A program made the translations under genes and the position numbers. The notes below the pieces were generated by a model that was not told the DNA's origin, made no database searches, and was given only the letters and a program-made list of their open reading frames with translations. From a virus, in IMG/VR virus record IMGVR_UViG_3300025093_000058, positions 1 through 36,563 of that record: a stretch of 36,563 nt of DNA, one strand, 5' to 3'. Of the stretch, positions 5,801-24,700 are shown one piece after another; the stretch's first letter is position 1; each line of letters begins with the position of its first letter.

Positions 5801-8800
5801 TATTGTAAAAGATTCATATTATCCGATAGATATTACATTCGATGAAGATCATCCTAGTATATGGATAGGTGATAATGAATTTGATTATAGTGGAAACTTT
5901 CCACAAGAATCAATTAAATACGATAAGGCAGGCAATTTAAAATCTGTAACACTCATAAACAAAAACACAGGCAATCCTATAGAAATAACAGGTGAGATCT
6001 TAATGTATGAAATAGCTGATTTATTACTTGTGTATCAATTAGCATTAGAAGAATTCTTATATACTACTGAGACTGCTCCTGACGGTACTACTAGACAAAT
6101 ACCAGGAACATTTGTTGTAAATGGAATTGAATATCAAGTAGATTACAATATAAAGGATCCTTCGAAATCTAAAGTATTTAGTGTACTTAGGATTGACGAT
6201 GAGTGGGTTGCTGATAAAGAAATGTTGCTAGCAAGAAGAGATTACGTCATAAATGAAGTTAGTAAACAATTTGCCGAACAATTAACTGCTGATATCGAAG
6301 GTTATGTTGATAAGGAAACAAAAACTTTGTTTGCTCCAAGAATTCAAAGAGAAAGAGAAACTGTACGTGAATATGTTAAAAGAGGGGAAGGACCATTAAC
6401 TAAGAAAAGTGGGGAAACAAAAGATGAATTTGCTGAAAGAACCGCAGATACCAAATATGAAATTAAAGGACACAATAAGTGGATATTAAACAAACAAAAT
6501 AAACCTTGGAAAGATGAAGAAACAGACTCCAAAGACATACCTCCTCAACCGCCTGCAGGACCAGAAACTCAAAAAGAAACTGATGGGACTGAATCCACGG
6601 GAGCGAGTAAGGGAGATCCTCAAACAGAGGATGAAATAGTAAATCAAATACCCGATGGGGATTTACCAACAAGTGAGCTAGAATTAATAGCTATCAATAA
6701 AGCGCTACAGGAATTAGAACCTAAAGCATCACAACTAACTGAAGATCTTAAAAATGCTCAATCTATTGAAGATCTACAAAGATTACTAATCAAAAAAACA
6801 GAAGAGCTTGCAGGTACTACTAATGTCGATCCAACAGTGGCAGCAGCAGAGGCAGTACCGCCATCCCCAATATACAAAAAAGGAAAATCAACAAGCACAG
6901 AAGTTAAAGTAATAAAAAGATCATCTATAAAAGCACCTGAAGATTTAGGTCTTACGGCAACAGCAGAAGCAAAAGCAGCAGCAAAACCAAAGAAAACAAC
7001 ATTAAGTGCAGAAGAAGTTTCAAATCTTGACAATGAGATTAAAAGAATTAAAAATTTCATAAAAAAGGTAGAAACAGAATTTGATACAATAAAAGATGAA
7101 GCGGTAAAAGCTAAACTGGCAGCTAAGAAAAGTACTGTACTAGTAGATGAAGATGTTGAAATTGGTGATGTCAGAATAGAATTAACCAGTAATCTTAAAG
7201 GTTTAAAGAAAGTAGAAGAAAACGGTAATAGATACTACGAAGATAAAGACGGCAATAAGTATATAGGCATGTCTAATATCGTGAATCCTTCTGACTTTGA
7301 AGATGAAAAAGGAGAATGGACTGACGCTAAATTCATAGGTAATGCGGTAGATGAAGTATTAAGAAATTTCTTTGCAGGCAAACCTACAGAGTATACGGGT
7401 GAAATTGCAAAGAGAATGTCTGAAGAGGCATATAACGAACTATTAAAAACAGCTGAAGGATTTAAAGAAAGTCTTAAAGACGAAAATGGAAGTTTAGATC
7501 ATATTGAGTTTTTAACAGAAGGGTTATTTATTGCAAATAATGATATTAAAGCAAGTCAAGAACATATAAACAAAGCAATTGAAGATCCTAAGTTAAGAAA
7601 ACAAGAGTTTGGAATAGCTACTGAAATGGATATGGTAATTGTAAATAAGAAAACAAATACTGTAGAGCTTGTAGATTTCAAAGCAGTAAGGCTTGGAAAA
7701 TTCAAAACACCTGAAAGTAATCTAAAAAAGGAATGGGGTGGTAAACCTTCTAAAAAACATGGATACACCAAACAGCAAAATGCTTCAAGGATAATACTGG
7801 AGCTCAATACAGGAATAAAATTTGAGGCATTGTCATTATTACCTATTGCATCACAATATGGTCCCAAACAAAGTAATACTACTAAAGCTAAAGTAAGTTC
7901 AAGATTGATGCCGCTAGATAAATTGGAAGTAGATAAGGTTTTTCCAAAAGCGTATGCAGAGCAAATTAAAAATATCTTAGAAGAGAAAGATGATTCTCTT
8001 TCTACACTAGAACCTAGCAATGTAGGACTCGAAAGAGTAGTATCTATTCTACCACCTTTTACAACAGGTCAAGTACAAAATGAGTTTCAGATTACTATTA
8101 AATTAGATAGTGGTCAAGAATTAGTAATAATTCCAAGAAAAGTAAATAAAAACGATGGGTTTAAATATGAAGAGTTAGCATTTGAAGCTTGGGTTACAAC
8201 ACAAGATGGATTTTTAATTCAAAAAAATGAAAAAGATGAACGCATAGTACCTAGTAATCGTGAAATAACAGACAATGTCGACAAATTTTTACCTGCAGAG
8301 TTAATAGAATTACTAAAGGAAGCTGTTACTTTAAGAGATAGATTTCATGATGGAAAATTAGGAGATAAATCTAAAGGATTAGAGCCCTATCAAAATGAAC
8401 TATTAGAACGTTTTGAAAAATATACTGATCCCTATCAAGAAATAATTTTAGAAGAAGAAATAGCTTATAAACAAAATGAGTTAGATACAGCCAATGAGAA
8501 AATAAAAAATAGTAAGACAGGAAAAGAAATACAAGCTGAAATAAATAAACTTAAAAAGAAACTAGCTAGCTTAAAAAAACAACCTGAACCATCATTTGAA
8601 CTAGAAAGTACTGAGCCTGCAGCAGATAGTAGAAAATCAAAATTTACACAGCAGACCCCAGGTAATGTTGATGGAAGCATAGAAACAAAAACTTTTTCAT
8701 ACCAAAAGAAAAAAAATAGTTCAGGTGCTTATTATTTAGTCTTTGATGAAAATGAAAATCCTATAACAAGAGACAAAGATTTTGGTATAAGCTTTAATGA

Positions 8801-10676
8801 TGATCTGCTTGCAAATCCTAATCTAATAAATGAAAACACTAAAGTATACGTAAGACCTTTTGAAACTCCTTACTTCAGAAACGAAATAGCAAATAATCCA
8901 GGTCGTAATCCTTCCAATGATTATATGGAGATTCCAATGATCTTGTATATCGAACATGAAGGAAATAAAGTAGCAGTAGGTATATTAAAAGCAGCTAATA
9001 CAACAGAAGAAGAACAACAAATTCGAAATGCTATATTTCAAAATTGGACTAAAACTAACAAAGAGGGTTATACAGTAGCGAACTTAGTACCCACAGACGA
9101 AGATGTGTTTATAAATTTCACAGGTGGTCAAAATCTAAGAAACGTAAGAGATGATCAGAATAAACCAGTACTTAAACCTGTAGCAGAAAGATGGACATCA
9201 GCATGGCAAGACGATGGAGAAGGAAACATTGAATTCTACACAGATGAAGATGTGGAGCTTAAATTTGGATATGTAAATAAACCATTAGAAGGAGCACCAC
9301 AAATAATAATTCCACAAGAAGGAACTTCTAACTTATCAAGGGAAGCAAAGGTTCTTAGACCAGAAAGAAGTGAAGCAGGTCAAATATACGGTGTTATTTT
9401 AAATGGTAATGGACAATATATTTTTCCAAAACTATCGACATCACAAATAAGTGAAAAAGCAGCTAAAGTAATAAGCGATATTTTAAATCAGGATAAAGTT
9501 TCCAAACAAGATGTTGAAGCAATACAAGAAATTATATTCACTGAATACGAAAATTCAGACATAATAGAAGCTATTGCAAGCTTAACAAATGTTCCTGATA
9601 ATAGAAATATTGACCCTATTATTAGAATAGCTTGGAATCACACTAAAAAAAATGCCTATATCCAATTTATACATAATGATAAGGTTTATAGTGTAGATGT
9701 AAACGATCTAAAAGATGATGAACCTGCAAGTCTAAGAAGAAAAAAAGTAGTAGTAAAAGAAAATGCAGCTGCTAATAAAAAGGAACAATCACTTTCAACA
9801 GAAGGTATAGATGCTAAAGTCATATATAATGAGTTAGGTGTGCATCCACTTGTAATAATTAATGAAATTATAAAAAGAAAAAAATACAATGTTCGAAGAG
9901 AAAGTCTAAATGACTTTACAGAGGAATATACAAGTCGTGTTACTGGTCAAGTATACAAAAACTATAATGACTATATATCTGGAAGAAAAGATCAAAACGG
10001 AAATCCAAACAATGAAATCAATAATAAAAGAGCAATTCTACAAACCGACATACAACCATCGAGTGAAGGAAATTACTTCTATGATTTACAATTACAAATC
10101 ACAATCAAAAAGGAAGAAGTTCAGGAAGAAGATGCCGAAGTTAAGGAAGAAAGTAGAATGCCAGAGGATCTTGAAGAACCAGAGGATAAATATGATAAAT
10201 TCGCAAAAGGAAAGAACTTATTTGGACTTGGAAAGGACCCATCTGAGAATCCATCTGGAACTATAGGAGGCATACCTTCAATGTCACCTAGAGGAAGATT
10301 CAATATGTTCCTTAACAAATTCAATATTCAAATATCAGGGTTTAGCTCGATAAGACCAGGAAAGGTAGATCCAGTAACAGTAAAGCAATTTAAGAATGAA
10401 GCTAAAATATTTGGACTGGAAGGAAGAGTATCTACTAATGGGTCATTGTATCTGTATGATCCATCAACAAAAAAAGCGTTAGTAAAAGATAACAGTCCAT
10501 CAAATAATCCTAACTTTAAATTGAAATTGAGTAGAGTAAAACCAATTAAGACGGATTACCCTTATCAAACTACACGTACTAAAAATGGAAGAACAATATT
10601 CCAACTTGGAATAACTCCTATTGAATGGGCGACTACTCCCGTTAAAGAAAAAGAAAACATTATAAATTGTAACTAA
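2889..10676 (+). CDS. Giant multidomain putative ejected virion protein with PD-(D/E)XK nuclease-like domain
   Basis: A 2595-residue protein starting at ATG 2889 after an A-rich leader with no clear Shine-Dalgarno. Residues 98-240 and about 415-435 hold Gly/Ala-rich hydrophobic stretches (SALSILIPVAGWARG, FFGAIGAGVMQAA) and a basic AKLAKLAKAGKKA run, which could insert in membranes. Residues about 470-930 are largely charged coiled coil. Low-complexity linkers lie near residues 1215-1245 (Pro/Thr/Glu) and 1316-1370 (Ala/Lys). About residues 1435-1690 look like a PD-(D/E)XK nuclease: D1581 in TEMDMVIV, then VDFKA with D1596 and K1598, then a YTKQQ motif with Q1629, as in RecB/Cas4-like nucleases. 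The remaining C-terminal 900 residues show no motif I recognise. The stop overlaps the next start as TAATG, implying translational coupling. The ejected-virion role is inferred from the neighbouring polymerase gene. The nuclease call rests on motifs only. Confidence 0.8.
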   Translation: MAEEILSNDELLDSNEVLGNDSEPKPGSGKDLLKKAVKKGSITNDYVLGKSYLLDEQKGKKVMGDAFLPYKPKFASLYTEAQKNYELRLAKKKAEDQGFWGEAGGAIAQALAEIVGGTVEGAGYLLDFKSMGDGTFGEGNWFSYLGTALKDWTREVAPIHVDPEVQGTFSPASREWWFSNVPSIASALSILIPVAGWARGVGMVGKGVGMGVKAARAAKLAKLAKAGKKATGLGGLNGIDDAVRAGMAYQDKFSKIWNAVAKNRTLNAVHQGIVSRHIESSMEASGVYQEVYEQVLAETGNEAEAKYAASDAAAFSYKGNSVLVFQDIPQYILLGRGLKATRAFNGRAQMVAAGKSGTKGTMKSAGRYMSDMASEFGEEAWQFVVGEEAIHFGNVMGGIAEDSNFSSRFGEYLEDGEFWTAGFFGAIGAGVMQAAKPIYDKIKGKSAVDSRIKELEDRGARFAYHNKKIRAAAESGLPDIYEQAMLDASSDMAVTAAREGNLDHYRQELETLKTADAETRKKMGVDETFVENIDRLINDANTVEQLWDANVNRFDPSILPYVVQSKFAISKLDKDRGKLISKINENRNGVYRYNELSAEGRIVFDAKLNITAAERGVEHAKKLLNDKSRKLTKEQKENIQEYIDKQEKRIAKDRTAISAVEADDSIALPDSDKDILKLLDNEALIGEAVSNIEKLSWQDQLIDAHIKRLNSLTNREIIGLAAKNKANLDKGREDFRRVQDLYTKIYKGAKEEILGKRKTIGVDKEGKPIKEKSDDWKDKEGSPKGTSDFELTRRYEVELTPKEKQAAIDEAKEILARTTDEQDKENIAKMIEKMEEVVNDGISRFQQQEKRKLKAIRDAQARALKKIKQLEAQAKRKETLTIKNEIALAYDQYEMIDHAYDDVPLGDLFIDDSDVLSVFYKGEKGTLFKNDLGEAVFKSSSSGEEIIISSSGNLEWNKLFYRRTASDLNLGIVKDSYYPIDITFDEDHPSIWIGDNEFDYSGNFPQESIKYDKAGNLKSVTLINKNTGNPIEITGEILMYEIADLLLVYQLALEEFLYTTETAPDGTTRQIPGTFVVNGIEYQVDYNIKDPSKSKVFSVLRIDDEWVADKEMLLARRDYVINEVSKQFAEQLTADIEGYVDKETKTLFAPRIQRERETVREYVKRGEGPLTKKSGETKDEFAERTADTKYEIKGHNKWILNKQNKPWKDEETDSKDIPPQPPAGPETQKETDGTESTGASKGDPQTEDEIVNQIPDGDLPTSELELIAINKALQELEPKASQLTEDLKNAQSIEDLQRLLIKKTEELAGTTNVDPTVAAAEAVPPSPIYKKGKSTSTEVKVIKRSSIKAPEDLGLTATAEAKAAAKPKKTTLSAEEVSNLDNEIKRIKNFIKKVETEFDTIKDEAVKAKLAAKKSTVLVDEDVEIGDVRIELTSNLKGLKKVEENGNRYYEDKDGNKYIGMSNIVNPSDFEDEKGEWTDAKFIGNAVDEVLRNFFAGKPTEYTGEIAKRMSEEAYNELLKTAEGFKESLKDENGSLDHIEFLTEGLFIANNDIKASQEHINKAIEDPKLRKQEFGIATEMDMVIVNKKTNTVELVDFKAVRLGKFKTPESNLKKEWGGKPSKKHGYTKQQNASRIILELNTGIKFEALSLLPIASQYGPKQSNTTKAKVSSRLMPLDKLEVDKVFPKAYAEQIKNILEEKDDSLSTLEPSNVGLERVVSILPPFTTGQVQNEFQITIKLDSGQELVIIPRKVNKNDGFKYEELAFEAWVTTQDGFLIQKNEKDERIVPSNREITDNVDKFLPAELIELLKEAVTLRDRFHDGKLGDKSKGLEPYQNELLERFEKYTDPYQEIILEEEIAYKQNELDTANEKIKNSKTGKEIQAEINKLKKKLASLKKQPEPSFELESTEPAADSRKSKFTQQTPGNVDGSIETKTFSYQKKKNSSGAYYLVFDENENPITRDKDFGISFNDDLLANPNLINENTKVYVRPFETPYFRNEIANNPGRNPSNDYMEIPMILYIEHEGNKVAVGILKAANTTEEEQQIRNAIFQNWTKTNKEGYTVANLVPTDEDVFINFTGGQNLRNVRDDQNKPVLKPVAERWTSAWQDDGEGNIEFYTDEDVELKFGYVNKPLEGAPQIIIPQEGTSNLSREAKVLRPERSEAGQIYGVILNGNGQYIFPKLSTSQISEKAAKVISDILNQDKVSKQDVEAIQEIIFTEYENSDIIEAIASLTNVPDNRNIDPIIRIAWNHTKKNAYIQFIHNDKVYSVDVNDLKDDEPASLRRKKVVVKENAAANKKEQSLSTEGIDAKVIYNELGVHPLVIINEIIKRKKYNVRRESLNDFTEEYTSRVTGQVYKNYNDYISGRKDQNGNPNNEINNKRAILQTDIQPSSEGNYFYDLQLQITIKKEEVQEEDAEVKEESRMPEDLEEPEDKYDKFAKGKNLFGLGKDPSENPSGTIGGIPSMSPRGRFNMFLNKFNIQISGFSSIRPGKVDPVTVKQFKNEAKIFGLEGRVSTNGSLYLYDPSTKKALVKDNSPSNNPNFKLKLSRVKPIKTDYPYQTTRTKNGRTIFQLGITPIEWATTPVKEKENIINCN

Positions 10677-13600
10677 TGGCATTAGGTTGTATAAACATAT
10701 TATCCCCTGACTTTTTAGATCTCAAAAAACAAACAGGGCTTAACGAGCATATTTTAGCTGCTAAAATAAAGTCTTGGCAAGATCGTAATAAGCGTGAGTT
10801 AGATGAATTTCCTACAGCTGATGATTTAGGATACATTGCTAGGTACAATTTCAGTAGCGATATAGATACAAATACTATAAACTATAATCTTAAAGTTGTA
10901 GATGCCCTTTTAAAAATATCCGAAAATAGAAAAACAATACGTCTAAATACAAAAGACAAGCCTTACATAGAAGAAAACCTTACTAAAGCTCTAGCCACAT
11001 CTGTACCTAAAGCTCAGATCAAAATGGTATTTGATAAGCTTAGAGAGAAAGGTGTAACAAGCATGCCTGTTGATCAATTGATCACTGATCTATTAGCTGA
11101 AAATAGTTTTGCTATTGAAATTAGCACTGCTGTTGAGTATACTAAACGTGATAAAGCTTCGGGAGTAGAAACATTTATTTCAAATGGGTATGTGTATAGC
11201 GGAGTTCAAGGCATATATAATAGATATAAGTTAAAAGACAGTTCTTTAGAAGATAGTTCTGAGTCTAATGTTGATTTTGATACAGAAGAAACTATTTCTG
11301 AAACTGATTTTGAAACAGCTAAGAAAACAGCAGTTGGTTTTAAAACACCTAGTCGACATTTTGATTATGTAAACATTACAGGAGGTGAAAATTATAGAGA
11401 AAATGCTATTAGAACTCCTGGTATTCTAAATATTTCTTCTGGTCTAGGTAGTCATATTACAGACTTTAGTGAGGGTATACCTGATATGTTAGGTTGGTTT
11501 AGAAGCGACGATAGAGCTATGATATCAAAAGCTAAATTAGCATCTGAGCTTACAAAAGATCTAAAAGATAATTTAGTAGTACAAATAACAAATGGTAAAA
11601 TAACTGTACTTGATAGTTGGGAAGATGCAGATGAGTCTGAACATCTAGATCAAATAATGGAATACCCCAATGTATTTGATAGTTCAGAGTTATACAATGG
11701 AAAATTTGTAGTTGATAAATCAGTTATTGAAGAAGCTGTAGGATCGGGATACACATTAGATTCCGTAGAAGTATCCGAAGACGCTTATACACGTAGAATA
11801 CTAGAACTACAATCTTATTTATTTCAGGAAAATAGGGATAAAAGTAAGTTAACTAAGCAAGAGTATAAAAAAGGTGATAAGGTTTTCGTAAACGGTGAAG
11901 CATATATATTTGGTAAAAAAGCTATACCTTCTACTGGACTTGAACCAAAAATATATTTACATCATGTAAACAATACTACTCAGCAAAAATATGATTTAAT
12001 AGTAGACCCAAGTTCTGTGACTTCTACCAGTAATCAATTCCTACAACTATTAAACACAGACAATAACTGGGTAACATTCTTTGTTAAATCTATACTACAA
12101 GATAGTGCTAGAAGAGGGTATGAAAAAGTATTATTTCCTACAGGTAGAACTGCTGCTAAAATTGAACAACACGTTCCTCTTAAAGACCAATTAACAACAC
12201 TAGAAGAACAAATTCAAAAGCTTAGTGATTTTGATAAAGCAAAATTACAAGAAGAACTTAAACAAACTCAAATAGAGGTTAAAGAAAAAGAAGATGAGAT
12301 TGCAGAATTAGAAGAAAAAATGCAAGCTCTTGTAGATAAAGCTGAGTTTGGATTTCAAGAGATTTATGTAAACGTTGAAGGATATGACAATGCAAGAATA
12401 CAGCATACAGATAGCCCTGCTAGAAAAGGTAATGACACGTATCTTGCACTACTTCCTGAAAACTATAAAGGTTACTATATCTATGCCTATAATGTAGGAA
12501 GGGACAGGGACAATAATGCATTTCCTCCAATTGTACCTTCAAAAGTTGCAATACCTATTACAGATGAAAAAGCTTTAGAATATTATGAAGCTGAAACTCA
12601 TACTATTCTTAAACTTAATGTACATGATAGACAGGAGTATCTAAACCTTAAAAATAAAGTTGATTTTCTCTCACAGGAAGGTAAAATTATACAACTTAAA
12701 GACAATATTAAAAACTTTGAAGTAATAAAGCGTTCAAATGAAAAAAGAATAGAAGAGTACAGAAATGAGAAAGCTGATCTGTTAAAAACTGGTCCCCCTA
12801 TTGAAAGTTTTTATGAAAACCGTGTAACAAATACTTTGAATAAAATTTTTGGTAAAAGTAATGTCAAGAAAATTACTGATGAACACAGTAATACCTGGAA
12901 TGAAGTTAATGTAGGAGAAGAACAATTAGCAGATGTAGCATTTAGTAGAAAACCAGTAACATCAGCATTTAGAATTTCAAAAACCAAAAGTGGTCAAAAA
13001 GAATATGACCTGGATAAAAAACCAAAAGGTGAGTCTACTGAAGTAGAACTCGTAATTGATCCTTCAAGAACACTCGATATTACAGAAGCTCAAGAAAGTG
13101 GAATAGCTACCAATGACATGCTTATATATGAGCAGATATTAAGAGAGGCTAAGTATGAGTACGATTATGTTACAAGTGATACATACAAGCAAATGTCACC
13201 ATTATCTCGTGATGAAGATATAGGTGCTATTGTAGCTAAGAAAGCATTAGAGAAAGGATATGAAGGTGTAATACAATACAAATCGCCTTATGCACCAAAT
13301 GTACAAGCAATACGAGATAAAGGACGTAAGTACACAAAGTTTGGTTCATTAAATCCTAATCAGATAGATCTGGATGATGCTAAACAATGGCTTGAATCAA
13401 GAGGTCTTTCTTTTGATATGGCTCAACAAACCATTGAAATAGCTAAAGGAATGCCTCATGGTGTAGAAGGATTATTCTCAGAAGGTGTTATTTACTTATC
13501 TAAGTACGCAACCAAGGGTACAGAATATCACGAAGCATTCCATGCAGTGTTCAGAATGTTTCTTACAGATGAGCAACAAGATGCAATACTTGCTGAATCT

Positions 13601-16600
13601 AAAAAGCAACGACCTGTAAGTCAAGAAGAACTTGATGAGCTTGAGGAAGCAGGATACTTTAGAATAGGAGATGATGGAAAGATCTATAAGAACATTGATG
13701 TAAAGGCACAAGGAAAAGGTAAACCTACAATTATTACTGGAGAAGAGTTAGAACGATTAGTTCTTGAAGAAAGACTTGCTGAACAATTCAGATCTTACGT
13801 AATATCAAATCAAAAAGTAAAATCATTAAGTGAAAAAATACAAAAGTTCTTTAGTGATCTATGGAAGTATATCAAATATTACTTCTCAAACAAGATGACA
13901 ATCGACAGATTGTTCTTCAATATTGACAAAGGTAGAATCAATAAAAAGAATCTCAATATGAGATTTGCTTCTAAGGGAGCAGCTGCTTCTTTTAGTAGAA
14001 ATGAAAGTAAACTATACAACAAATTCAGCGATAGTCAAATAGAAAATATCATAAATGACATAAACAGTTATTTCATTTCACTCAATAAACAATTCCCTGA
14101 AGATTCACCTAATGATCTGTACTCTGCTATAAGAAGACAAATTAAAAAAGGAATATTCGTAAAAAACAATAATCTGCTAACATCAAAAGAAGCAAGTTTT
14201 CATATTGAAAACCTAAAAATGTTACTTGATGATGATCTCAACATAACAAAAGAGTTTCAAGATTATATGACCAATAATAATTTAGTCTTCCGTCAACACA
14301 ACGGTATTAAAATTGGTAAAACCTTATTGTTTACCGATTTATTATGGGAAGATGCTTCAGCAGAATACGGTAACATAGAAGACCGTGGTATTCTATACAA
14401 AGCAAAAATTGGACTACAAAGATTTGGATACAAAGTGTATGGTGATGAAGTAAGTATTCATGAAGATCAAGATGATATAGATGAAAAAATATACGATAAG
14501 TCACACCTTGAAGAGAATAGAAAAGACACTCTATCAAAAGATATAAAAGAGTTCTTAACATTTATTCCAGTATTGGTCAAAGACAGCAATGACCAATTTG
14601 TTAAAAAAGTAGGAATACTTGGTGCGGATGTTTATTACAATTTTGACGAACTATACTCCAATATTGCTTTCTCACTTACAAATAGTAAGAGTTATGATCA
14701 CATGATCAAGAACCTTGAACTAAGATCTAATAATTTTCCAGAGTTAAAATCTGTATTAAATGAGTTAAAGTCAAAGCAGAAAAATGAAATGTTCAAATCA
14801 AAATTCTATTCTGCAATGGCAAATACTTATAACAACTTCATTGGGGCCATTGAAGAAGTAATGTTAGATGCTAATGGTACGAAAGCTGGAATAAGAGTAA
14901 GATACTATAACTCGAATTTAAATAATGTTGAAAAGAAGTTATTGAAAAGATGGAAAAATAACTCTAGAGCAAGTGACGGTACAGGCTTATTAACTAATTC
15001 TGATGAAAATGAATTAGTGATAAATGAAGACATTTTAGATAGACTCAATGATACATCTGAAGATTCAATAGGTAATGTACTAATGAATTACTATAACAGA
15101 AGAAAGAGATCATTAAATAGCATTCCATTAGATGAAGAAATAGATGCAATAGCTGAATTTGCAAACCTATTAGGTATGGATATACCAAGAGAAACTTTTG
15201 AGTTAGCTTTTAACAACGGAATAATAATTAAAAATCAACCTATAAAAGGCTATGATCTATTTGGATATCTTACTGGTGGCGCTTCAACTGTAGATGACGC
15301 ACTAAAATTGAAACTGTACGAAAAAGCAAACGACAATACTCCCGTAGCTACTTTAGTAAAAGAGGATGCGAATGGATACATAATGGATCCTTATACAGAG
15401 TATGTAAGCGTAATAAAGAAGTTTGCACTGTTAAGTGCTTCTTTTGAGAGAAACGCCCACGGATCATTTATAAATGCAGCAAATAAAAGTACATATCCAA
15501 TAAATACAAATACTACACTTGACAGAATAATAAATGCTGCAAAAACATACGATTCTAAATCTACAGAGTTTTGGGATGAATGGCTCAGACAGTTCAAAGA
15601 AGATCCTTTTTACATGCCAAGTAGAGGATCTAGCAATAGAGATAAAAGAAAGTATGATAGCATATTAATTAGTGAGATTTTAAACAGCACCTCAACATTT
15701 ATCAATGACATGCTTGAAATCTCAGATTTCGATGCATACAAAAAGAGAAATGAATTTGTAACTAAAAATACATTTGAATTACTTTCTGACAAATTATCAT
15801 TAATTCATAGATTAAACGCTTTCGGTAATAATGGTAACGCAAATGAAATGCTTATTGTATTACCTACCCTTGCAGATAGAACTAGAATGATGATGCTTAG
15901 TTTGCCAAGACTAAGTCATTATTTTACAAACAATGATGGGTATACGTTTACAAATACAAATAAACTACAAGACAAGGATGGGAACTATTCAATTTTCATG
16001 AGGTATGTAGTGCAGGATATACTTGATGCACAGAATGGTGAAAAAATGACTACTAGAATAAAGAATTATGATAAAAATCATAAACTCTTTAGACAACTTC
16101 CATACCTGAATGAAACAGAAGCAGGTAAAAAATTAATGGAATATGCTCTTGCTAATCCAGATGCCCAGCTTACAAATCCATCTGAAGAAGTAAGTAAACT
16201 ACTTGATCAAGTACAGCTCGAAATAAATAAATACGTTGAAAATGAAATTCAGCAAAAAACAAGAACGTATAAAACAACAGTAGGGAAAAACATATCTGAT
16301 GAGGTTTTAAACATATATGAGAAAAAAGGAAGAGGTCAATCTGATTTAAGTAAAAATGAAAAGAAATCAATGTTCATAAAAGATTATATAGTGAACACAA
16401 TGATCTTTGAAGCTGAAATCATAAAACTAACTTCAGGTGATCCTGGTCTATATAAAAATAGCCTTAAAGGCGATGAGCAAATAAATACTTTAGAAAATGA
16501 AAGTAAACGATATGGTAGTTTAGCTACACCTGGAACTGAATTTAGGATACAAGATGCTCCTGATAGCTATGGTAGTAAACCAAAATATACAATAGGTGTA

Positions 16601-19600
16601 ATAAATGATATTTTCAGAAAGAATGAAACACTTCTAGAATCACTTGATAAGATAATAACTGATAAGCGTGTACTAGACGTATACAAAGAAGGAAACAAAA
16701 AACAAGGTTCAAATGTAGCAGATGGTATGGGGATAACCACTCTTGAATATTATAGAAGTATTTCTAGAGGTAATGGTACATGGGGCGATAAGAACGGTGT
16801 CAAAGAACAAGCATATCAAAACTATAAAAAAAACGGAGGAAGATTTGTAGATAACAAAGGAAGGCAAGTAAAACTTAAACCATTAAAGACATATTCTGAC
16901 GGATTATACCTAAAGGATTTTGGTAATGGTGTGAAAAAAGTAGTTAGGATAATGGTTAAGCATTCAACCTTTCCATTACTTGCTGAATTTACAAAGGGTA
17001 CGGGATTCGATAATATTAGAATGCGAATGGAAAAATCAGGTCCATTTGAAAAAATTGAAAACATTAGTCCTATAGATGAAATAAATATGGATTCTGCAAT
17101 AAAGTCAGGATTGCACAACGCCATAGATCTCGAATTAGATAATGATGGTAATCCTTCAATAGAGTCACTATCTAAAATGCAAGGAATAGAACTGGATACA
17201 CATTTCTTAAGAATGCCTCAGATAATTCCAGATACTGCAAAAGAATCAAGAATAGGTTCACAGTTCATGAAATTATTAATCACAAACCTCAAAAAGAATT
17301 TTGATAACCCATATGTAGTAGGAAATACAGTATTAACTGGTAAACAACTTTATGACATATATGGTGAGCTAATAGAACAGCAACTTGAAATGGGTGTAGA
17401 TAAAGTATTCAGTGATTTTGGAATACCTAAAAATGAAAAAGGTCAATATGACTTAGACGGTGTGTTTAATTCTGCTGATAAGACATTGGCAATGTTAAAA
17501 AACATAAGAAAAGTACTCAATAATTCAATAGAGGAAAGAGAGCTACCTGACACATATCTTAAAGCATTGAATATTGTAAAAGTTGAAGAAAGTAATGAAA
17601 AAGATTATGACTTTGCCAGTCCTTTAGCTATGCCCGTATTTGCAGAAAAATTTGCCAATATAATATTAGCTATATGTAAAAGAGGATTCATGAGAATCAA
17701 CATTAATGGGCAAGGTCTTGTGCAAATAGCAGAGATAGGTAAGGTCAAAACAGACGAAGAAGGTACTCATGGACTTAAGTTTATACAAGGAAAAGAAGAA
17801 ACAGTAAGTGCTAGTGCAGTAGAAAATGTGGTTAAAGATGTAGATGAAGAAACAGGGAAAGAAACTTTCTATGAAAAGATTGTACAATACAATGATGAAT
17901 ACTGGACTGTAAAAGAAAAAAGAGGCGATAAAGTAAAAATTCAAAAAATAATTAGTGCGGAGATTGCCATGCCTTGGGAGTTTGCACAACGTCTTAATCT
18001 ACCAAAAAATAAAAATGGTGAGTATGATATTAGTTCAATTCCTAAAGATGTATTAACGCTTATCGGATACCGTATACCTACACAAGGTAAGAACTCAATG
18101 CTACCGTTAAAAATAGTTAAGATACTCCCTAAGTCGATGTCAAAAATGATAATGGTTCCTGCAGAGATCACTACTCAAATGGGATCTGACTTTGATATTG
18201 ATAAACTATTCACAATGATACCTAATCTAAAGGTAAAAGGTACATTGAAAAATGGACAAAAGTTTGATTGGTTTGAAACCTATAAGAGTGAGCTGCTAAA
18301 GAACTTACCTAAAAACATCAAGCTATCAGACAAGCAGATATCATTATTGCTTGAAGATACTGAGTACTACCTTGAAATCGAAGGTTTAGATGCAGATGAA
18401 GAAACTGCAGTACATGGTGCAGCAATACAGGCTAAAAAGAAAACAGTAAAAGCACTCAATAATCTTAAAAACTGGACCATATCTAAAGTAAAATACGATA
18501 TAAACAATCTTAAAAAAGCTACTAAAAAAGGTCTTGAAAATGCATACATAGATATTGCACATGCAATGCTTACAAGTCCATATCATATAGATGATGTACT
18601 TAAAACTATTGATTCACCTTTACTTCCTGGATTAGCCAACTTCTTTAAAAGAACAATAGCTGACTATAATGCAATACTTGATCGTAATAACGTAGATTCA
18701 CAAAGAGCTCTTGAGGAAAGAAATAAGGCTGGTAGTAAAGGTATTAGTATTTCGGCAGTTGCAACTACAGGTCAAGCAGGAAGACAATTTACGAAACTTA
18801 AAACAGGCATTCCCTACTTAATAGACAATAAAAAATATAGTGATCTCACATTAACAGAAGATAAAGAAGGTAATGATATAAGCTATCAACTACAGCAACA
18901 CCTTACGATAGCTGTAGATAATGCAAACGATCCTATAATGCTCTTCTTAATGGATAATGCATTTACTTCTGGTGTACGTAATGCCATTATATCTTTAGGT
19001 ATTTCTCATGAAAGCATGAAGGGAGATAGTCTAAAAAAGATGTCTAAAGAAAAGGGTATTGACGTAGAAGGACTTGATGATCTTTTTAAATCAGCTAACG
19101 GTGATGCAGTTGTATGGGCTTCTTTCTTTTTAAATCAACCAATAATCAGAAAACTCTATAAAGAATACATAAACAAAGAAGGTACTCCTGGAAAACTATA
19201 CAGAATTGCCAATAGTATATTGAGCAGTAAAATGAAAGCTGAAATTATAAATGCAACTGGAGATACAGAATTAGATAGCTTAGTAAATTACGTACAGTTG
19301 GATATCCCACTAAAAAGTGAAAAATTAATAGAAAACTTTAATAAGTCACTAGACGATAAAAGTGATGTTTTTGCCAAAGATCAATTACAAGTACTTGGGT
19401 TATTTTTACAATTGTTCACCACAGGAAATGACATAAGCAAAGTAAACAGGATATTAAATAGTGACAGAATCAAAGACTTTAATAATCCTGCAGGTATTGA
19501 AGCACATCTTGATCTTATAGATTACTTCGAAAAAAAGAAAATAATTACAGAAAGAGTTAGAGCAGTTGAAAAAGCAAATGTAAATATATACAAAGGAGGA

Positions 19601-21709
19601 TTTGAAGATAAAGGTAAAGGAACTCCCCAGGGGGATGGTAAAGACAAAGCTATGCGTAAAATAGCAGACGGATTTATTGGAGAAGTTTCAGATAAATCCA
19701 AAAAATCAAGTACGCTTACTAGTCATACTAAAATTAATTCTGAAAAAAATAGATTAGAATACCCTGATTCTCCTACCGTATCTTATGAACCTTTTAATAT
19801 AGCTCCTAAAGTAATAATGCTAGCTAGAAACGGGGCTTTAAAAGGAAAAGACCTAAGTTCTTCTACTTTGGGAATGATAAAATTATCTCATGAAAACGGT
19901 GCTAAATTTGTTGTTGGTGATATGCCTGGAGTGGATAGTCAATTTATAGATTATCTAAAAGAGATAGGTGCTAATTTTACTATTTATCATACAGGTAAAA
20001 CACCTAGAATTAAAGTTAGTGTAACTCAACCACAAGTTAAAATGGAAACAGATGTTGAATACATACCCACTCGTGGTATTGATGACATCTCAAGTATACT
20101 TGAAGGAGATTATCCAATAGCAAATTCCTACATCAAGATGATAGGTACAGCTAAAGCATTAGTATCAAAATTTTTCCCATACTATGAATCTGGTTTAGAA
20201 GATGCAAAAGCAAATATCGCAAACGAACTTGCCACTGAGTCATTAACAATAGATCAAATAAAAGCTATCAATAAAGATGCATTCATGCACCTAATAAGTC
20301 AAAAGCAGGAAGGATATGCACCATCTCCATTTGCTCCATTGTTTTCAACACAATGGGAAAACAAATTGTTAACTGGAGACAATAATATTGCAGTACAATT
20401 CAGAAAACTAAGAAGTGAAATTGCTGATGCAGATCCAACGGATTCAATAAAAACATTAATGAACCCTGATACTGCAGAGTCTAAGTTTTTTAGTAAACTC
20501 GATGAGAATGAAGATAACACTGCAAAAGAAAAAACCACTAGTATTACAATGGATGGTCTTAGAACCATGCTTAGAAAAAGATTTAGTATCACAAAGAATG
20601 AAAAAGACATGATACGGAATAAAAGAAAACCCAAATCTTTGCTTCTAAGGACAAAAAGATCTAATGAATTTTCAAGAATAGGTAGTGAAAAGAATATCAA
20701 AATTGGAAATGAAATGTATACCATTAAATACAAAGGGGCTCATACATTAGACACAATAAAAACATCAAAAGATGTATTGATCAAAAAATTAGCATTAAAG
20801 AAAGCAGACAAAAGAAGACAAAAAGATTACAAGAACAATTATCTAGTAAAAAACTCTAAAGGGGAGAAATTTATCATTCAAAGAAAAACGTTCAAAAATT
20901 TCCTGGAAGGAACTGGAAAACAAATACACTTGTATGATATCTTTAGAACACCTCCAAAACAACAAAGAAAAATAGAAGAGAAAAAAGAAACTGATAGATA
21001 TAGACATAAAACATTATCGTTCAATCAAGACTTTGCATATAGTAAAGAAGAAAAAGATACAATGACTCAAGGTTTTATGAATATGTTAACTCATGAAAAT
21101 GAAAAAGTAAGAGAGTTTGCGAAGAATCTTGTATACTATCACATTTTATCCAGAGGATTTGATAATGGTGTAAACGCATTTATTGATATGATTCCAAATG
21201 AAGTGTGGGATGATCCAGGAATGTCTTTGCTATACAAGAAAGATGAAGAGGGAAATTTAGTACAAGAGCTAATCTCACTAAACGAATACATTAGAAAGCA
21301 CCAGCTTAATTACTTCAAGGATCCTAAATTTTTCAAAACCTTCATTGAAGATTTTATTGCACATAGGAGTGCAACTCCATATTTAATTAGACAAGTAAAA
21401 CTTAAATCTGGTGAGATCAAAAAACTAAATAATAACAAAAGTGTTAGTTTGCCACCTGATAGCAAATTAGGATTGTATCCTAAGTTTTACAAAACTTTAC
21501 ATCAAGGTAAATTTATGCTATTGGTAAGAACAGCCCCAGGTAAATATGTAAAGTTTAATTCTTATGATCCAGCTAATACAAGCGGTGAAATAAATGATAT
21601 GTGGAGATTTCAAAGATTTAATATTGAAAGACTAAAAGACAAAAAAGATTTAACTACAAACAGCGATAGACAACAAGATCAAAATGAGAATTTTATCTGT
21701 GCATTTTAA
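10676..21709 (+). CDS. Giant crAss-like virion RNA polymerase protein with zincin, polyvalent and SLOG-like domains
   Basis: A 3677-residue protein whose ATG overlaps the previous stop by one base. Seen in order: residues about 470-490, RGYEKVLFPTG, and about 708-725, FYENRVTNTLNKIFGK, which resemble segments of phage polyvalent proteins, with a coiled-coil insert at about 500-560; about 860-895, GYEGVIQ ending FGSLNPNQI, similar to the end of ART/polyvalent modules; residues 952-956 HEAFH followed by EERLAEQF near 1031, a zincin protease signature; about 2465-2476 RIPTQGKNSM, then GSDFDID with D2505, D2507 and D2509, the metal-binding DxDxD motif of two-barrel RNA polymerases; about 3045-3115 a SLOG-like domain with VVGDMPGVDSQF and TIYHTG; about 3280-3460 very basic. 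In crAss-like phages this polymerase is packaged and transcribes early genes after ejection. The polymerase call is firm, the zincin good, the SLOG and polyvalent calls moderate. The single reading frame is unbroken for 11 kb. Confidence 0.9.
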   Translation: MALGCINILSPDFLDLKKQTGLNEHILAAKIKSWQDRNKRELDEFPTADDLGYIARYNFSSDIDTNTINYNLKVVDALLKISENRKTIRLNTKDKPYIEENLTKALATSVPKAQIKMVFDKLREKGVTSMPVDQLITDLLAENSFAIEISTAVEYTKRDKASGVETFISNGYVYSGVQGIYNRYKLKDSSLEDSSESNVDFDTEETISETDFETAKKTAVGFKTPSRHFDYVNITGGENYRENAIRTPGILNISSGLGSHITDFSEGIPDMLGWFRSDDRAMISKAKLASELTKDLKDNLVVQITNGKITVLDSWEDADESEHLDQIMEYPNVFDSSELYNGKFVVDKSVIEEAVGSGYTLDSVEVSEDAYTRRILELQSYLFQENRDKSKLTKQEYKKGDKVFVNGEAYIFGKKAIPSTGLEPKIYLHHVNNTTQQKYDLIVDPSSVTSTSNQFLQLLNTDNNWVTFFVKSILQDSARRGYEKVLFPTGRTAAKIEQHVPLKDQLTTLEEQIQKLSDFDKAKLQEELKQTQIEVKEKEDEIAELEEKMQALVDKAEFGFQEIYVNVEGYDNARIQHTDSPARKGNDTYLALLPENYKGYYIYAYNVGRDRDNNAFPPIVPSKVAIPITDEKALEYYEAETHTILKLNVHDRQEYLNLKNKVDFLSQEGKIIQLKDNIKNFEVIKRSNEKRIEEYRNEKADLLKTGPPIESFYENRVTNTLNKIFGKSNVKKITDEHSNTWNEVNVGEEQLADVAFSRKPVTSAFRISKTKSGQKEYDLDKKPKGESTEVELVIDPSRTLDITEAQESGIATNDMLIYEQILREAKYEYDYVTSDTYKQMSPLSRDEDIGAIVAKKALEKGYEGVIQYKSPYAPNVQAIRDKGRKYTKFGSLNPNQIDLDDAKQWLESRGLSFDMAQQTIEIAKGMPHGVEGLFSEGVIYLSKYATKGTEYHEAFHAVFRMFLTDEQQDAILAESKKQRPVSQEELDELEEAGYFRIGDDGKIYKNIDVKAQGKGKPTIITGEELERLVLEERLAEQFRSYVISNQKVKSLSEKIQKFFSDLWKYIKYYFSNKMTIDRLFFNIDKGRINKKNLNMRFASKGAAASFSRNESKLYNKFSDSQIENIINDINSYFISLNKQFPEDSPNDLYSAIRRQIKKGIFVKNNNLLTSKEASFHIENLKMLLDDDLNITKEFQDYMTNNNLVFRQHNGIKIGKTLLFTDLLWEDASAEYGNIEDRGILYKAKIGLQRFGYKVYGDEVSIHEDQDDIDEKIYDKSHLEENRKDTLSKDIKEFLTFIPVLVKDSNDQFVKKVGILGADVYYNFDELYSNIAFSLTNSKSYDHMIKNLELRSNNFPELKSVLNELKSKQKNEMFKSKFYSAMANTYNNFIGAIEEVMLDANGTKAGIRVRYYNSNLNNVEKKLLKRWKNNSRASDGTGLLTNSDENELVINEDILDRLNDTSEDSIGNVLMNYYNRRKRSLNSIPLDEEIDAIAEFANLLGMDIPRETFELAFNNGIIIKNQPIKGYDLFGYLTGGASTVDDALKLKLYEKANDNTPVATLVKEDANGYIMDPYTEYVSVIKKFALLSASFERNAHGSFINAANKSTYPINTNTTLDRIINAAKTYDSKSTEFWDEWLRQFKEDPFYMPSRGSSNRDKRKYDSILISEILNSTSTFINDMLEISDFDAYKKRNEFVTKNTFELLSDKLSLIHRLNAFGNNGNANEMLIVLPTLADRTRMMMLSLPRLSHYFTNNDGYTFTNTNKLQDKDGNYSIFMRYVVQDILDAQNGEKMTTRIKNYDKNHKLFRQLPYLNETEAGKKLMEYALANPDAQLTNPSEEVSKLLDQVQLEINKYVENEIQQKTRTYKTTVGKNISDEVLNIYEKKGRGQSDLSKNEKKSMFIKDYIVNTMIFEAEIIKLTSGDPGLYKNSLKGDEQINTLENESKRYGSLATPGTEFRIQDAPDSYGSKPKYTIGVINDIFRKNETLLESLDKIITDKRVLDVYKEGNKKQGSNVADGMGITTLEYYRSISRGNGTWGDKNGVKEQAYQNYKKNGGRFVDNKGRQVKLKPLKTYSDGLYLKDFGNGVKKVVRIMVKHSTFPLLAEFTKGTGFDNIRMRMEKSGPFEKIENISPIDEINMDSAIKSGLHNAIDLELDNDGNPSIESLSKMQGIELDTHFLRMPQIIPDTAKESRIGSQFMKLLITNLKKNFDNPYVVGNTVLTGKQLYDIYGELIEQQLEMGVDKVFSDFGIPKNEKGQYDLDGVFNSADKTLAMLKNIRKVLNNSIEERELPDTYLKALNIVKVEESNEKDYDFASPLAMPVFAEKFANIILAICKRGFMRININGQGLVQIAEIGKVKTDEEGTHGLKFIQGKEETVSASAVENVVKDVDEETGKETFYEKIVQYNDEYWTVKEKRGDKVKIQKIISAEIAMPWEFAQRLNLPKNKNGEYDISSIPKDVLTLIGYRIPTQGKNSMLPLKIVKILPKSMSKMIMVPAEITTQMGSDFDIDKLFTMIPNLKVKGTLKNGQKFDWFETYKSELLKNLPKNIKLSDKQISLLLEDTEYYLEIEGLDADEETAVHGAAIQAKKKTVKALNNLKNWTISKVKYDINNLKKATKKGLENAYIDIAHAMLTSPYHIDDVLKTIDSPLLPGLANFFKRTIADYNAILDRNNVDSQRALEERNKAGSKGISISAVATTGQAGRQFTKLKTGIPYLIDNKKYSDLTLTEDKEGNDISYQLQQHLTIAVDNANDPIMLFLMDNAFTSGVRNAIISLGISHESMKGDSLKKMSKEKGIDVEGLDDLFKSANGDAVVWASFFLNQPIIRKLYKEYINKEGTPGKLYRIANSILSSKMKAEIINATGDTELDSLVNYVQLDIPLKSEKLIENFNKSLDDKSDVFAKDQLQVLGLFLQLFTTGNDISKVNRILNSDRIKDFNNPAGIEAHLDLIDYFEKKKIITERVRAVEKANVNIYKGGFEDKGKGTPQGDGKDKAMRKIADGFIGEVSDKSKKSSTLTSHTKINSEKNRLEYPDSPTVSYEPFNIAPKVIMLARNGALKGKDLSSSTLGMIKLSHENGAKFVVGDMPGVDSQFIDYLKEIGANFTIYHTGKTPRIKVSVTQPQVKMETDVEYIPTRGIDDISSILEGDYPIANSYIKMIGTAKALVSKFFPYYESGLEDAKANIANELATESLTIDQIKAINKDAFMHLISQKQEGYAPSPFAPLFSTQWENKLLTGDNNIAVQFRKLRSEIADADPTDSIKTLMNPDTAESKFFSKLDENEDNTAKEKTTSITMDGLRTMLRKRFSITKNEKDMIRNKRKPKSLLLRTKRSNEFSRIGSEKNIKIGNEMYTIKYKGAHTLDTIKTSKDVLIKKLALKKADKRRQKDYKNNYLVKNSKGEKFIIQRKTFKNFLEGTGKQIHLYDIFRTPPKQQRKIEEKKETDRYRHKTLSFNQDFAYSKEEKDTMTQGFMNMLTHENEKVREFAKNLVYYHILSRGFDNGVNAFIDMIPNEVWDDPGMSLLYKKDEEGNLVQELISLNEYIRKHQLNYFKDPKFFKTFIEDFIAHRSATPYLIRQVKLKSGEIKKLNNNKSVSLPPDSKLGLYPKFYKTLHQGKFMLLVRTAPGKYVKFNSYDPANTSGEINDMWRFQRFNIERLKDKKDLTTNSDRQQDQNENFICAF

Positions 21710-21720
21710 AATAAGCAGTA

Positions 21721-24700
21721 ATGGCAATATCATGTAAGCATCAAATAGATGCATTAAACAATAAAGGCAGACTTGTAAAAGAGGATAGTGCGTTATATAA
21801 AGAGTTAAATGATCTTCTAGGTAAAGAAGATCTTGCTGATCTTACGTACAATCAAATAAACAGTGATGAGTTTAAAGCTGAGTTTGGAAATTTTAGACTG
21901 TACTACAACTTTGACGTTATTCAAAAGAAAGAATTGAAAAGCGTATACACAGAAGAAACAGCAAAGTCAGAAGCACAAAGAATAAACAACATTTACGGAG
22001 AAAATAGTGCTGTGGCAATTAAATCTGGAGATAATTGGGATGTAACGTTAATATTACCTTCAGATAACTCAGTAACAAAAGCAGTTAACCGACAGGGTGA
22101 ACCATTGATTTTTTATCAAACGGGAGAAAATACATTTACAACTAGTCTTGCTGAAGCAGGATTATATGAAACTCCTGAAGACTATGAAGGTACATTGCCA
22201 AGAGTTAAAAAAGGAGAAACTTTTCCATTATTCTTGAACATAAAGACAAAAGAAGATGGAGAAATTGAAGAAATGGGCGATCTTTTTGAAAACGTAAAAG
22301 CAACAATAAAAAATGAAGGTGTTGCCTATTTTGCAGCTACAGGTAAAGCAATTACGATAATTACTGAAGAAGAGATAAAAAAAGAAATAGAACTTGATGT
22401 AGACGCAACTGAAGAAGAGATAGAAAGAAATCGAGAATTAAATACACTTGCCCTTACGACAATAGAGTCTCTTGAAAAGAAACTTGAAATTATAAAAAGA
22501 AAAGAAGAGAAAAAGGATAAGAGTAAAAGAAGAGGTACGTTAGTAGGAAAATTATCTGAACAAATAAAAGAACTTAGAAAACTTAGATCGCTAACTGGAA
22601 ATATAAATGATGAAAGTGTAGCAGAAAGAAATTTACTAATACTTCATAAATTTTTACAATTCGCAAAAGACTCAGTAGAAGCTGTAGATAAAAGAGTAAG
22701 TCTTATCGAAAAAGAGATCAAAAGTGGAAAACTTGAACCAAAGCAACTATTAAAAAGAATAGCTACTGCAAAAGATTACATGTCAGTATTTGATATGGCA
22801 ACTGATATAGCCGACACCATAAAAGATCTTGAAGGAATTGTTAGCATTGACTTAGACTTAAGTGAAGAGAAATTAAGAACAGAATTTGTAGACCCTATAA
22901 TGGGAAGCATTAATATGTTGAACGGTAAATACATCAGATTAGCTAAACCTATAATTGTTGACTTTTTAAGTAAATACACTGGTGACACTAAGCTTACAAA
23001 AAGAGACATTCATAATATGCTCACACACGTACATGATGATATTGATTATATAACATATTTAGCAGACTCTTTAGCAGATTCAACAGATAGGGTGTTAGCA
23101 CTAGTTGATAAAGTGATCAAGACTGAAAAAGCAAAAATAAATTTTGAGATGGTAAGTTTCAGAAACACAGAAATGAAAAAGGTAATAAACGATCTCAAAA
23201 GATCACAATCTGTTTCTGCAAACAATCACGAAAAGTTCTACAATTTTATGTTAGATCGTGATTCAAAAGGAAAACTAACTGGAAAATATATAGAAAAAGA
23301 TTCACAAAGGTATAAAAGCTTAACAGCAGCTCAAAAAGCATTTTATGATTTGTTTCATGAAAATTATCAAGAACATCAAAAAAGACTTGGTGCAGGGTTT
23401 CAAAGGAAATATTTTATTCCATCAATTTTGAAACCAGGAAGCGAAAGAGCATTTCAAGACGTAAGGGGAGTTTCATCAGCAGTTAATGCTGCAGCTAAAT
23501 CAATGGGAGACTTAGTAAAAAGAAGAGAAGATGAAAAAGACTACATAGAAGTTTATACAGATGAGCAAGGTAGAGAATTTAAATTTATTCCTATAAAATA
23601 CACCTCAAGGATAAGTAGAGAAAAAGATAAAGGAGTTAATCCAGATGATATATCTCTGAATTTAGAGGAAAGTCTGCAAATGTTTATGACAATGGCTAAA
23701 AATTATACAGCAATGACCAGCGTTGTAACAGAAATTATGGCAGTTCAAGATCTTGTAGCTGTAAGAAGAGTTACTCAAAAGAAAGGAACTAAACAAATGG
23801 TTACTGGTACTTTTAGTAAATTAATAGGTGGTGAAGAAAGAAAAGAAGTTACTGAAGCAGGAATTACAAGTAATGCTTACAAACAATTGAAAACATATCT
23901 TGATATGCAAATGTTTGGTGAGCGAAAGAAAGATGAAGGTAACTTATTATTTGACTCATTAGACAAAGCAAAAACTCTTGACCTGCTTGGTAAATATACA
24001 TCTCTAAGATCACTTGCAGCCAACCTGTATTCAGGTATCAACAACGTATCTGTGGCAAACGTAATGAACATGATCGAAGGAGCTGGTGGACAGTTCTATG
24101 AAAGAAAACATTTACGACAAGCTAAAGCAGATTACGCTAAGAACATATATGGATTTGTAAAAGATGCGGTATCAGAGTTTCCAGAGAATGAAATAAGCAT
24201 ATGGATGGATTCATATGATATCTTTCAAGAGTTCGATCAATATGGTAATAAGCTACCATCAAAATCTCTTGCTAGACGTTTAGCAAGTAAAGTAACCTAT
24301 ATTATGCAAAGCTCTGGAGAGCACATGATACAGACCGAAGTTGCTTTAGCAATGGCTAGAAGTCATAGAATTATAAACAAGCCAGGATCGAAAGATGGAA
24401 CAATAATGAGCTATCAGGACTGGTTAATCGCTAATCCAGATAAACCAAATAACAAACAAAGTAAAAAAGAATTCGAAAGCTACCCAACAGTAAAAGATTC
24501 TATAGGTGTAAAGGACGGAGTATCGTGGACACAGACAAAAGACGGAGTAAAAATTACTCAGGAACAAATGATCAGGTTCACAGAACGAATCAAAGGTGTT
24601 TACCAATACCTACATGGTAATTACTCTAAGAATGATGCAGCTGTATTGCAACAAAAAGCATTTGGAAGACTTCTTATTTTATTCCGTAAGTGGCTAATGC

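Follow-up and report, generated by a model that had tools for sequence, protein, structure and literature searches.

The window analysed here, a stretch of viral DNA of 36,563 bases that makes up the entire IMG/VR record IMGVR_UViG_3300025093_000058, carries on its plus strand, at 10676..21709, an open reading frame (ORF) that begins with ATG, has no internal stop and encodes a chain of 3677 amino acids (aa). This chain joins a zincin-like metallopeptidase domain, the core of a crAss-like virion RNA polymerase and a SLOG-like cassette, and it is the cassette, not the zincin-polymerase part, that is the unusual portion worth following. An earlier note on this DNA, made from the sequence alone, had claimed one uninterrupted frame with three motifs, and a single open frame (10676-21709) does hold HEAFH, GSDFDID and VVGDMPGVDSQF together. 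Its positions for HEAFH (aa 952-956) and for the polymerase metal site (aa 2505-2509, which is DFDID, the full GSDFDID spanning aa 2503-2509) are correct; VVGDMPGVDSQF, which it had placed at about aa 3075, is present but begins at aa 3079.

All features of the chain lie on the plus strand. The zincin-like domain covers aa 919-1098 (13430..13969), with HEAFH at 13529..13543 and, at aa 1030-1038 (13763..13789), the stretch LEERLAEQF, a second helix with the predicted glutamate zinc ligand; it was recognised by a profile match, by the conserved HExxH and downstream glutamate, and by homology to the C-terminus of crAss001 gp47. The polymerase core, homologous to g066 of Cellulophaga phage phi14:2 by BLASTP and profile, covers aa 1879-2779 (16310..19012), with the GSDFDID catalytic metal site at 18182..18202. 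The cassette follows at aa 2972-3125 (19589..20050) and has two conserved parts, the first (YKGGFEDKGKGTPQGDGKDKAMR...) at aa 2972-3005 (19589..19690) and the second, a 69-aa core (KVIMLARNG...KFVVGDMPGVDSQF...FTIYHTGKTPRI), at aa 3045-3113 (19808..20014). When the residues of the 3677-aa protein were shuffled 2000 times, HExxH alone arose by chance in 3.4% of shuffles, HExxH followed 50-110 residues on by ExxAxxF in 0.1%, G[SA]D[FY]DxD in 0.1% and VVGD-x(1,2)-GxD in 0.05%. The whole protein gave no useful match to Pfam and PHROGs, and its domain pieces gave chance-level or coiled-coil matches only.

A frame of this length might reflect an assembly or annotation error that fused separate genes, and in crAss001, cr85_1 and cr128_1 the zincin and the polymerase are indeed separate, divergent genes. 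We regard such an artefact as extremely improbable here. Another IMG/VR record (L001) shares 23,123 bases with the window and differs from it there at 4 positions, of which 2 are substitutions inside the ORF. It encodes the same chain, which argues that the frame is real and not a misassembly; zincin and polymerase also share one ORF at 67 of 79 other loci (from the best 80 of 370, described below). Further contigs hold zincin, polymerase and cassette within a single frame. Three of the other five frames of the same stretch contain 248, 335 and 559 stops.

The polymerase, the zincin and the neighbouring cargo genes

Homology carries the polymerase assignment. BLASTP aligns the core with phi14:2 g066 at E 1e-25 over 921 columns, in which GSDFDID falls on GSDFDID, and a profile of 31 polymerase sequences built without phi14:2 matches PDB 6vr4 at E 1.1e-29 (an earlier profile match to 6vr4, at E 9e-35, was circular, since phi14:2 was among its sequences, and was replaced). 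The earlier note's claim of a crAss-like polymerase is strongly supported by these alignments. A tblastn search of aa 1301-3677 against 50,697 phage records gave 143 matches, and among the 40 of the 143 that were listed the alignments fall at aa ~1770-2880 and many of the matches are annotated as RNA polymerase. The chain has the DxDxD metal site of gp66-type crAss-like virion RNA polymerases, and by homology it would contain two double-psi beta barrels. Like the window, phi14:2 gp66 (PDB 6vr4) has a single-chain polymerase core with GSDFDID and an adjacent g065-like partner; it differs in its length of 2180 aa, in an ORF without HExxH and in that no cassette was found in the phi14:2 record.

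For the zincin-like domain, a comparison of aa 1-1300 with the phage records matched 36 of them, all at aa 875-1123, and in crAss001, cr85_1, cr128_1 and Dulem virus 41 this region forms the C-terminal end of a cargo protein encoded on its own. Among zincins selected by profile and not by motif, 23 of 23 keep the H-E pair together with Glu, Ala and Phe in the second helix, and these three second-helix residues are at least 90% conserved in a larger alignment of 81 zincins, which was chosen by its HE motif and is informative for the second-helix residues only. The window has the HExxH and the following-helix Glu that mark the zincins of polyvalent proteins. In a zincin model of 396 aa, the helices that bear HExxH and Glu have pLDDT 84-96 over most of their blocks, and Pfam Tox-MPTase4 is matched at E 0.005 by 1 of the 23 relatives. 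Judged from sequence, the gene boundary is shifted, such that a gp47-type C-terminal zincin is here fused to the polymerase.

How common this fusion is was surveyed in the best 80 of 370 confirmed IMG/VR loci, minus the window's own virus and with no other de-duplication. Zincin and polymerase lie in one ORF at 67 of the 79 loci and in separate ORFs at 9, with 3 cut by the stretch end, and over 18 contigs the pairwise divergences of the two domains correlate (rho 0.51, reached by 0 of 2000 permutations). By these sequence comparisons the zincin-polymerase fusion is ordinary for crAss-like phages, and the co-occurrence of protease and polymerase, which the earlier note had singled out as special, is instead the usual arrangement. 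crAss-like polymerases have already been described as giant multidomain proteins (part of PMC7886860) that reach ~6000 aa (part of PMC10136315), and a zincin-polymerase fusion has been published for N4-like phages (PMC5512222, cited throughout from part of its text). The polymerase of coliphage N4 is likewise an ejected chain fused to a zincin-like metallopeptidase, and related proteins bear other effector domains (PMC5512222), but it is of the T7 type and not two-barrel, and SLOG has 0 occurrences in the main text of that paper. Among the papers listed in our literature search there was no crAss-like report joining RNA polymerase, zincin and SLOG; the founding papers of 2018 and 2021 lie outside that search and may mention the zincin.

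The genes on either side are consistent with cargo. Downstream, at 21721..25323 (+), a 1200-aa ORF encodes a gp49/g065-type RNA polymerase-associated virion protein (crAss001 gp49, E 3e-67; phi14:2 g065, E 4e-43), and because this neighbour and the polymerase core are both homologous to crAss-like genes, we read the locus as a crAss-like transcription block. Upstream, at 2889..10676 (+), a 2595-aa ORF whose stop overlaps the ATG of the 3677-aa ORF by one base matches crAss001 gp47 weakly (E 0.001, aa 1484-1657) and matches, at E 2e-14, part of the giant ORF of another locus (L035) upstream of that locus's zincin; the remainder of the gp47-like protein is probably this ORF. In the window, homologues of known virion cargo flank the zincin boundary on either side and also occur further downstream. 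In crAss001, gp47, gp49 and gp50 are homologous to the window's zincin region, partner and polymerase, with the difference that zincin and polymerase are separate divergent genes and no cassette was found. The 4551-aa protein of cr55_1 (Suoliviridae) has, like the window, zincin (HEAFH) and polymerase (GADFDVD) in one ORF; it differs in having ~2000 aa ahead of the zincin in the same ORF, again with no cassette found, and a comparison of this pre-zincin part with the window's 2595-aa ORF found no homology. Genes g065-g068 of phi14:2 are annotated from tandem mass spectrometry (MS/MS), and gp47, gp49 and gp50 have been detected by mass spectrometry in crAss001 virions (part of PMC10172136). By analogy with these homologues, the chain of the window phage would be packaged in the particle and ejected.

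Distribution and apparent mobility of the SLOG-like cassette

The consensus of the cassette reads GGF..GKGTP.GDGKDKAMR in its first part and IMLARNG...FVVGDMPGVDSQFIDYL.EIGA.FTIYHTG in its second, and both parts co-occur in 44 of 44 ORFs. Two IMG/VR scans for it gave 2 and 45 loci, and with the window and later finds included it stands in an open frame at 46 loci. At 21 of these it shares the ORF with zincin and polymerase, at 6 with the polymerase only (where a zincin may be missed or cut off), and at 19 the ORF is not matched by the crAss-type polymerase profile. De-duplication leaves 18 viral contigs of the 21, the window included, with L096 (same contig as L035), L052 (99.8% identical to L019) and L062 (identical to L041) left outside; rows L018, L015, L001 and L064 were dropped as the window's virus, and L049 as the same contig as L016. 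At one further locus (L060, about 600-1400) the cassette is broken over three frames, owing either to a sequencing error or to decay, and this locus does not enter the ORF counts.

In 15 of the 18 contigs the cassette comes last, after the zincin and then the polymerase; it comes first, ahead of zincin and then polymerase, in 2 (L028, L037), and it stands between zincin and polymerase in 1 (L040). Between the window and its 17 relatives the 69-aa core is 58-71% identical, against 26-40% for the zincin and 25-40% for the polymerase active-site region, and the means over all pairs of the 18 are 66%, 29% and 31%; the whole cassette, variable linker included, is 43-61% identical to 37 others, and 23 residues are invariant across the 38 cassette sequences. 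Third codon positions of the core are 54% identical, so the similarity is kept at the protein level and not by very recent copying. Over the 18 contigs, cassette divergence is uncorrelated with that of the polymerase (rho -0.10, p 0.75) and weakly correlated with that of the zincin (rho 0.14, p 0.13). Our reading is that zincin and polymerase make up a body that evolves together while the cassette moves between such bodies, although the short core limits the power of the test. That the positions of the cassette differ among chains, and that its divergence does not follow theirs, is what one would expect of a mobile module.

The profile of the cassette, which does find G001 and G040, has no match in 10 named crAss-like phage records, and besides the window's virus 1 of the 79 zincin loci carries it (L096). 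A tblastn search of the window cassette against the 50,697 phage records returned only 15 Lak megaphage records, all weak (E 0.05-0.9); these Prevotella phage Lak matches lie in the second part of the cassette, for example at MK250016.1 269695-269937. A peptide-pattern scan of 84,980 species genomes, which relies on near-exact peptides and would overlook relatives that are distant or unpermuted, gave one locus, on a contig binned as Neisseriaceae (L063). There, at 3258-10001, the cassette stands in a 2247-aa ORF with phage-like giant-ORF neighbours, in a bin of uncultured Neisseriaceae, and the contig is probably a phage contig in the wrong bin. The giant cassette proteins of L016 and L063 share FVFGSN...HG.G.AK, which was not seen by eye in the window protein.

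Where the cassette occurs outside crAss-type polymerase chains, virion genes are often close by. One of the 19 such loci is L063; of the other 18, ORFs were scanned against families at 10 (L027, L031, L032, L044, L045, L047, L048, L051, L054 and L059), with L026, L033, L034, L036, L053, L055, L057 and L058 left out. An internal virion protein, terminase or portal match lies in the same or a nearby ORF at 7 of the 10 (L027, L031, L032, L044, L047, L051 and L059). In L032 the cassette ORF itself matches, in its C-terminal part, a family of internal virion proteins (E 4e-51), and a tail gene lies close by; in L031 the upstream ORF matches an internal virion protein; a large terminase ORF precedes the cassette ORF in L051, a portal ORF follows it in L047, terminase and portal lie upstream in L059, and a terminase lies downstream in L044. 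A 4801-aa ORF in L027 (1919-16321), outside the crAss-type polymerase profile, joins ART-PolyVal (E 2e-47), a GADFDKD polymerase-like motif and the cassette, with a terminase downstream. At L050 there is a partial polymerase match, and the cassette lies near a replicative helicase.

Fold and bacterial relatives of the cassette

We call the cassette SLOG-like, on sequence and model grounds, and do not claim formal SLOG membership. Its AlphaFold2 model shows alternating strands and helices, with pLDDT 83-96 in the conserved parts and 67-74 in the linker. Structural comparison with VIA gave its best Z, 6.7, to HAD-type phosphatases. Pfam SLOG models, which do not cover every clade, match none of the 38 cassettes and also fail to match a bacterial relative (L145, below). 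An hhalign comparison with four near-identical YAcAr domains did not rise above shuffles, their sequence diversity being too low, and the YAcAr model fell below the cut-off against the protein of L154 (E 0.005). The SLOG claim of the earlier note thus stands in part: the confident alpha/beta model and a profile match to a bacterial family favour it, and the missing Pfam SLOG match does not.

That family, which we refer to by its GSR/GDxxGxD motifs, came from a cassette-profile search of 299 genomes of one phylum, in which one bacterial protein was found besides a phage-like contig (E 6e-4). The family (L145) is present in 5 of the 299 genomes and in 97 of 72,556 plasmids, as proteins of 125-286 aa on chromosomes and plasmids, and a profile of it against the PDB gave nothing significant (DprA at E 1.2). 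Unlike the phage cassette, it is not part of a giant chain, and its halves stand in the reverse order, [GSR...GDxxGxD...PRNN] and then [KD..M..ADYGLMIWD.KSxGT]. The second part of the cassette matches the first half of the bacterial family by hhalign at E 2.7e-12, and swapping the two bacterial halves lets the alignment run on across the GDGKDKAMR..AD part of the cassette, with a sum of probabilities of 78.7 against a shuffle maximum of 71.4 (0 of 200; L150 was left out of this test). The raw score is 75.1 with or without the exchange, and only the extent and the summed confidence grew. Taken alone, the first part matches the bacterial second half weakly (probability 6.7%), a score reached by 1 and a summed confidence reached by 6 of 200 shuffles. 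Plain HMMER with the halves exchanged gained 2.7-3.6 bits in 5 of 7 cases and nothing in 2 of 7, with several cut points equal; these rotations do not discriminate, and it is therefore the hhalign comparison that carries the claim of a permutation. We consider it likely but not proven that the cassette is a circular permutation relative to the bacterial family.

On 3 of 6 plasmids (L151 1912-3346, L152 1923-3370 and L155 1908-3361) the bacterial family follows directly after a ComF-family gene and sits in a longer protein annotated as a transcriptional regulator or antidote. It is possible that the ComF-like gene and the bacterial GSR/GDxxGxD protein form a two-gene system.

Proposed role of the chain

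We think it likely that the 3677-aa protein provides the catalytic chain of the virion RNA polymerase of a crAss-like phage, that it is a polyvalent protein with several domains, and that it works along the following lines. Like its homologues, the chain would be packaged in the particle and passed into the host before the DNA, where the polymerase would transcribe early genes, the core task of the chain. The zincin would most likely cut giant chains in cis or in trans, in the particle or after entry, and the cassette would most likely bind or cleave a nucleotide-derived host ligand, for instance an ADP-ribose-type alarm signal, and in this way blunt host defences with an activity loaded in advance, ahead of all phage gene expression. 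In the sense defined by Iyer et al. 2017 (PMC5512222) the term polyvalent is apt: several distinct effector domains are combined in a single large phage protein whose gene lies with virion genes.

A number of observations weigh against this reading. The roles of all the domains are predictions, and a single-sequence phmmer search with the whole chain against the PDB gave nothing at E 1 or better. The best PDB matches of the zincin profile, the Zmp1/PPEP proteases, are weak (E 0.075, with HE..H and EE..AE in register), and with the larger zincin alignment the PPEP match falls to E 0.35, below an unrelated chain. The zincin model has no Foldseek match at E 0.001, and among the VIA rows its best zincin has Z 4.6 over 137 aligned residues at 5.1 Å; VIA Z scores for the zincin and SLOG-like models are 6.7 or less. 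Foldseek matches of the cassette model are non-significant too, with DprA and Moco carrier protein, both of which we take to be SLOG-type, listed at E 0.5 or worse. A family missing from the Foldseek and VIA lists is not excluded by its absence. The zincin claim of the earlier note is accordingly upheld by HExxH and the downstream Glu in 23 of 23 relatives and left without a significant fold match by the structural searches. No virion match turned up in the ORFs tested at L045, L048 and L054, which are three of the 10 loci scanned outside the crAss-type polymerase chains.

Other explanations can be given for the zincin and for the cassette. Because the zincin travels as an attached or a separate part of the same cargo, we favour a protease that would cut cargo. 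It could instead be an effector aimed at the host, or a structural remnant that has lost catalysis, and not a processing protease for phage chains, which is a real possibility, if short of a probable one. Host targeting is named as an option in PMC5512222, and the N4 virion RNA polymerase, which also bears a zincin, is packaged unprocessed (PMC5512222); moreover, HEAFE replaces HExxH in 2 of 18 zincins (at aa 188 and aa 1253 of the giant ORFs of L046 and L061), perhaps leaving an inactive or altered metal site, and protease activity is thus not universally kept. Against a remnant or a host-targeting effector speak the catalytic Glu and second-helix Glu, invariant in the 23 profile-selected sequences, and the fact that, even where gene boundaries shift, the domain remains linked either to the polymerase or to its cargo partner. 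For the cassette, we tentatively propose a circularly permuted, essentially phage-only SLOG-like domain that hops among particle-loaded proteins (crAss-like virion RNA polymerases, internal virion proteins of other phages and proteins encoded beside terminase and portal genes) and would antagonise a nucleotide-derived bacterial alarm signal in the first minutes after ejection. The main rival to this is a packaging or ejection module, a small domain that would attach cargo to the portal or steer it along the tail. Such a module would account for the presence of the cassette both in giant polymerase chains and, in other phages, within or close to virion genes, for a core far more conserved than the fused enzymes and for a changing position. 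We consider it rather unlikely, since many crAss-like polymerase and cargo chains go without the cassette (none found in 10 of 10 named records, and 1 of the 79 zincin loci with it), so that packaging does not need it, and since the GDxxGxD loop, like the kinship with a bacterial family of stand-alone proteins, suggests a fold that binds a ligand.

The suggestion of counter-defence made in the earlier note is compatible with the evidence and bears mainly on the cassette. Viral SLOG domains, typically stand-alone, have been proposed to counter cyclic ADP-ribose signalling (part of PMC9503650); the role proposed for them, countering ADP-ribose-type signals, is the same as that considered here, whereas the window's domain is fused into a polymerase chain and apparently permuted. 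An indirect lead comes from cr126_1 (L006), in which a NADAR domain (record 12151-12537, E 2.4e-16) lies near the N-terminus of the polymerase ORF (7322-14527). This is another predicted ADP-ribose-processing domain fused to a crAss-like virion polymerase; NADAR exceeded the cut-off in 1 of 19 records, and the giant ORF of L038 has a sub-threshold match. If the cassette does act on a host signal, some phages would deliver an anti-defence activity on the very chain that starts transcription, and one small domain would be shared among unrelated delivery systems. At ~150 residues the cassette is a compact, testable unit, and searching with it may reveal further particle-borne cargo proteins.

Some smaller features of the window may be recorded here. 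A segment of the form FYEN...TDE..NTW(N/Y)E lies upstream of the zincin in the window (12809-12907), and in L046 (ORF 8381-14938) and L056 (ORF 12129-19523) it lies in the ORF after the polymerase chain; its differing places may be another sign of domain shuffling. An ADP-ribosyltransferase (ART) in aa 560-900 was considered and is not claimed: aa 561-880 matched the window's own ORF only, in 56 sources searched, and the stretch GYEGVIQY...NPNQID (aa 861-898), which to our eye resembles an ART tail, is not taken as ART identity. Finally, the ORF at 26079-26783 on the minus strand contains GQDPYHDGSADGLAFS, a stretch that we assume to be typical of uracil-DNA glycosylase.

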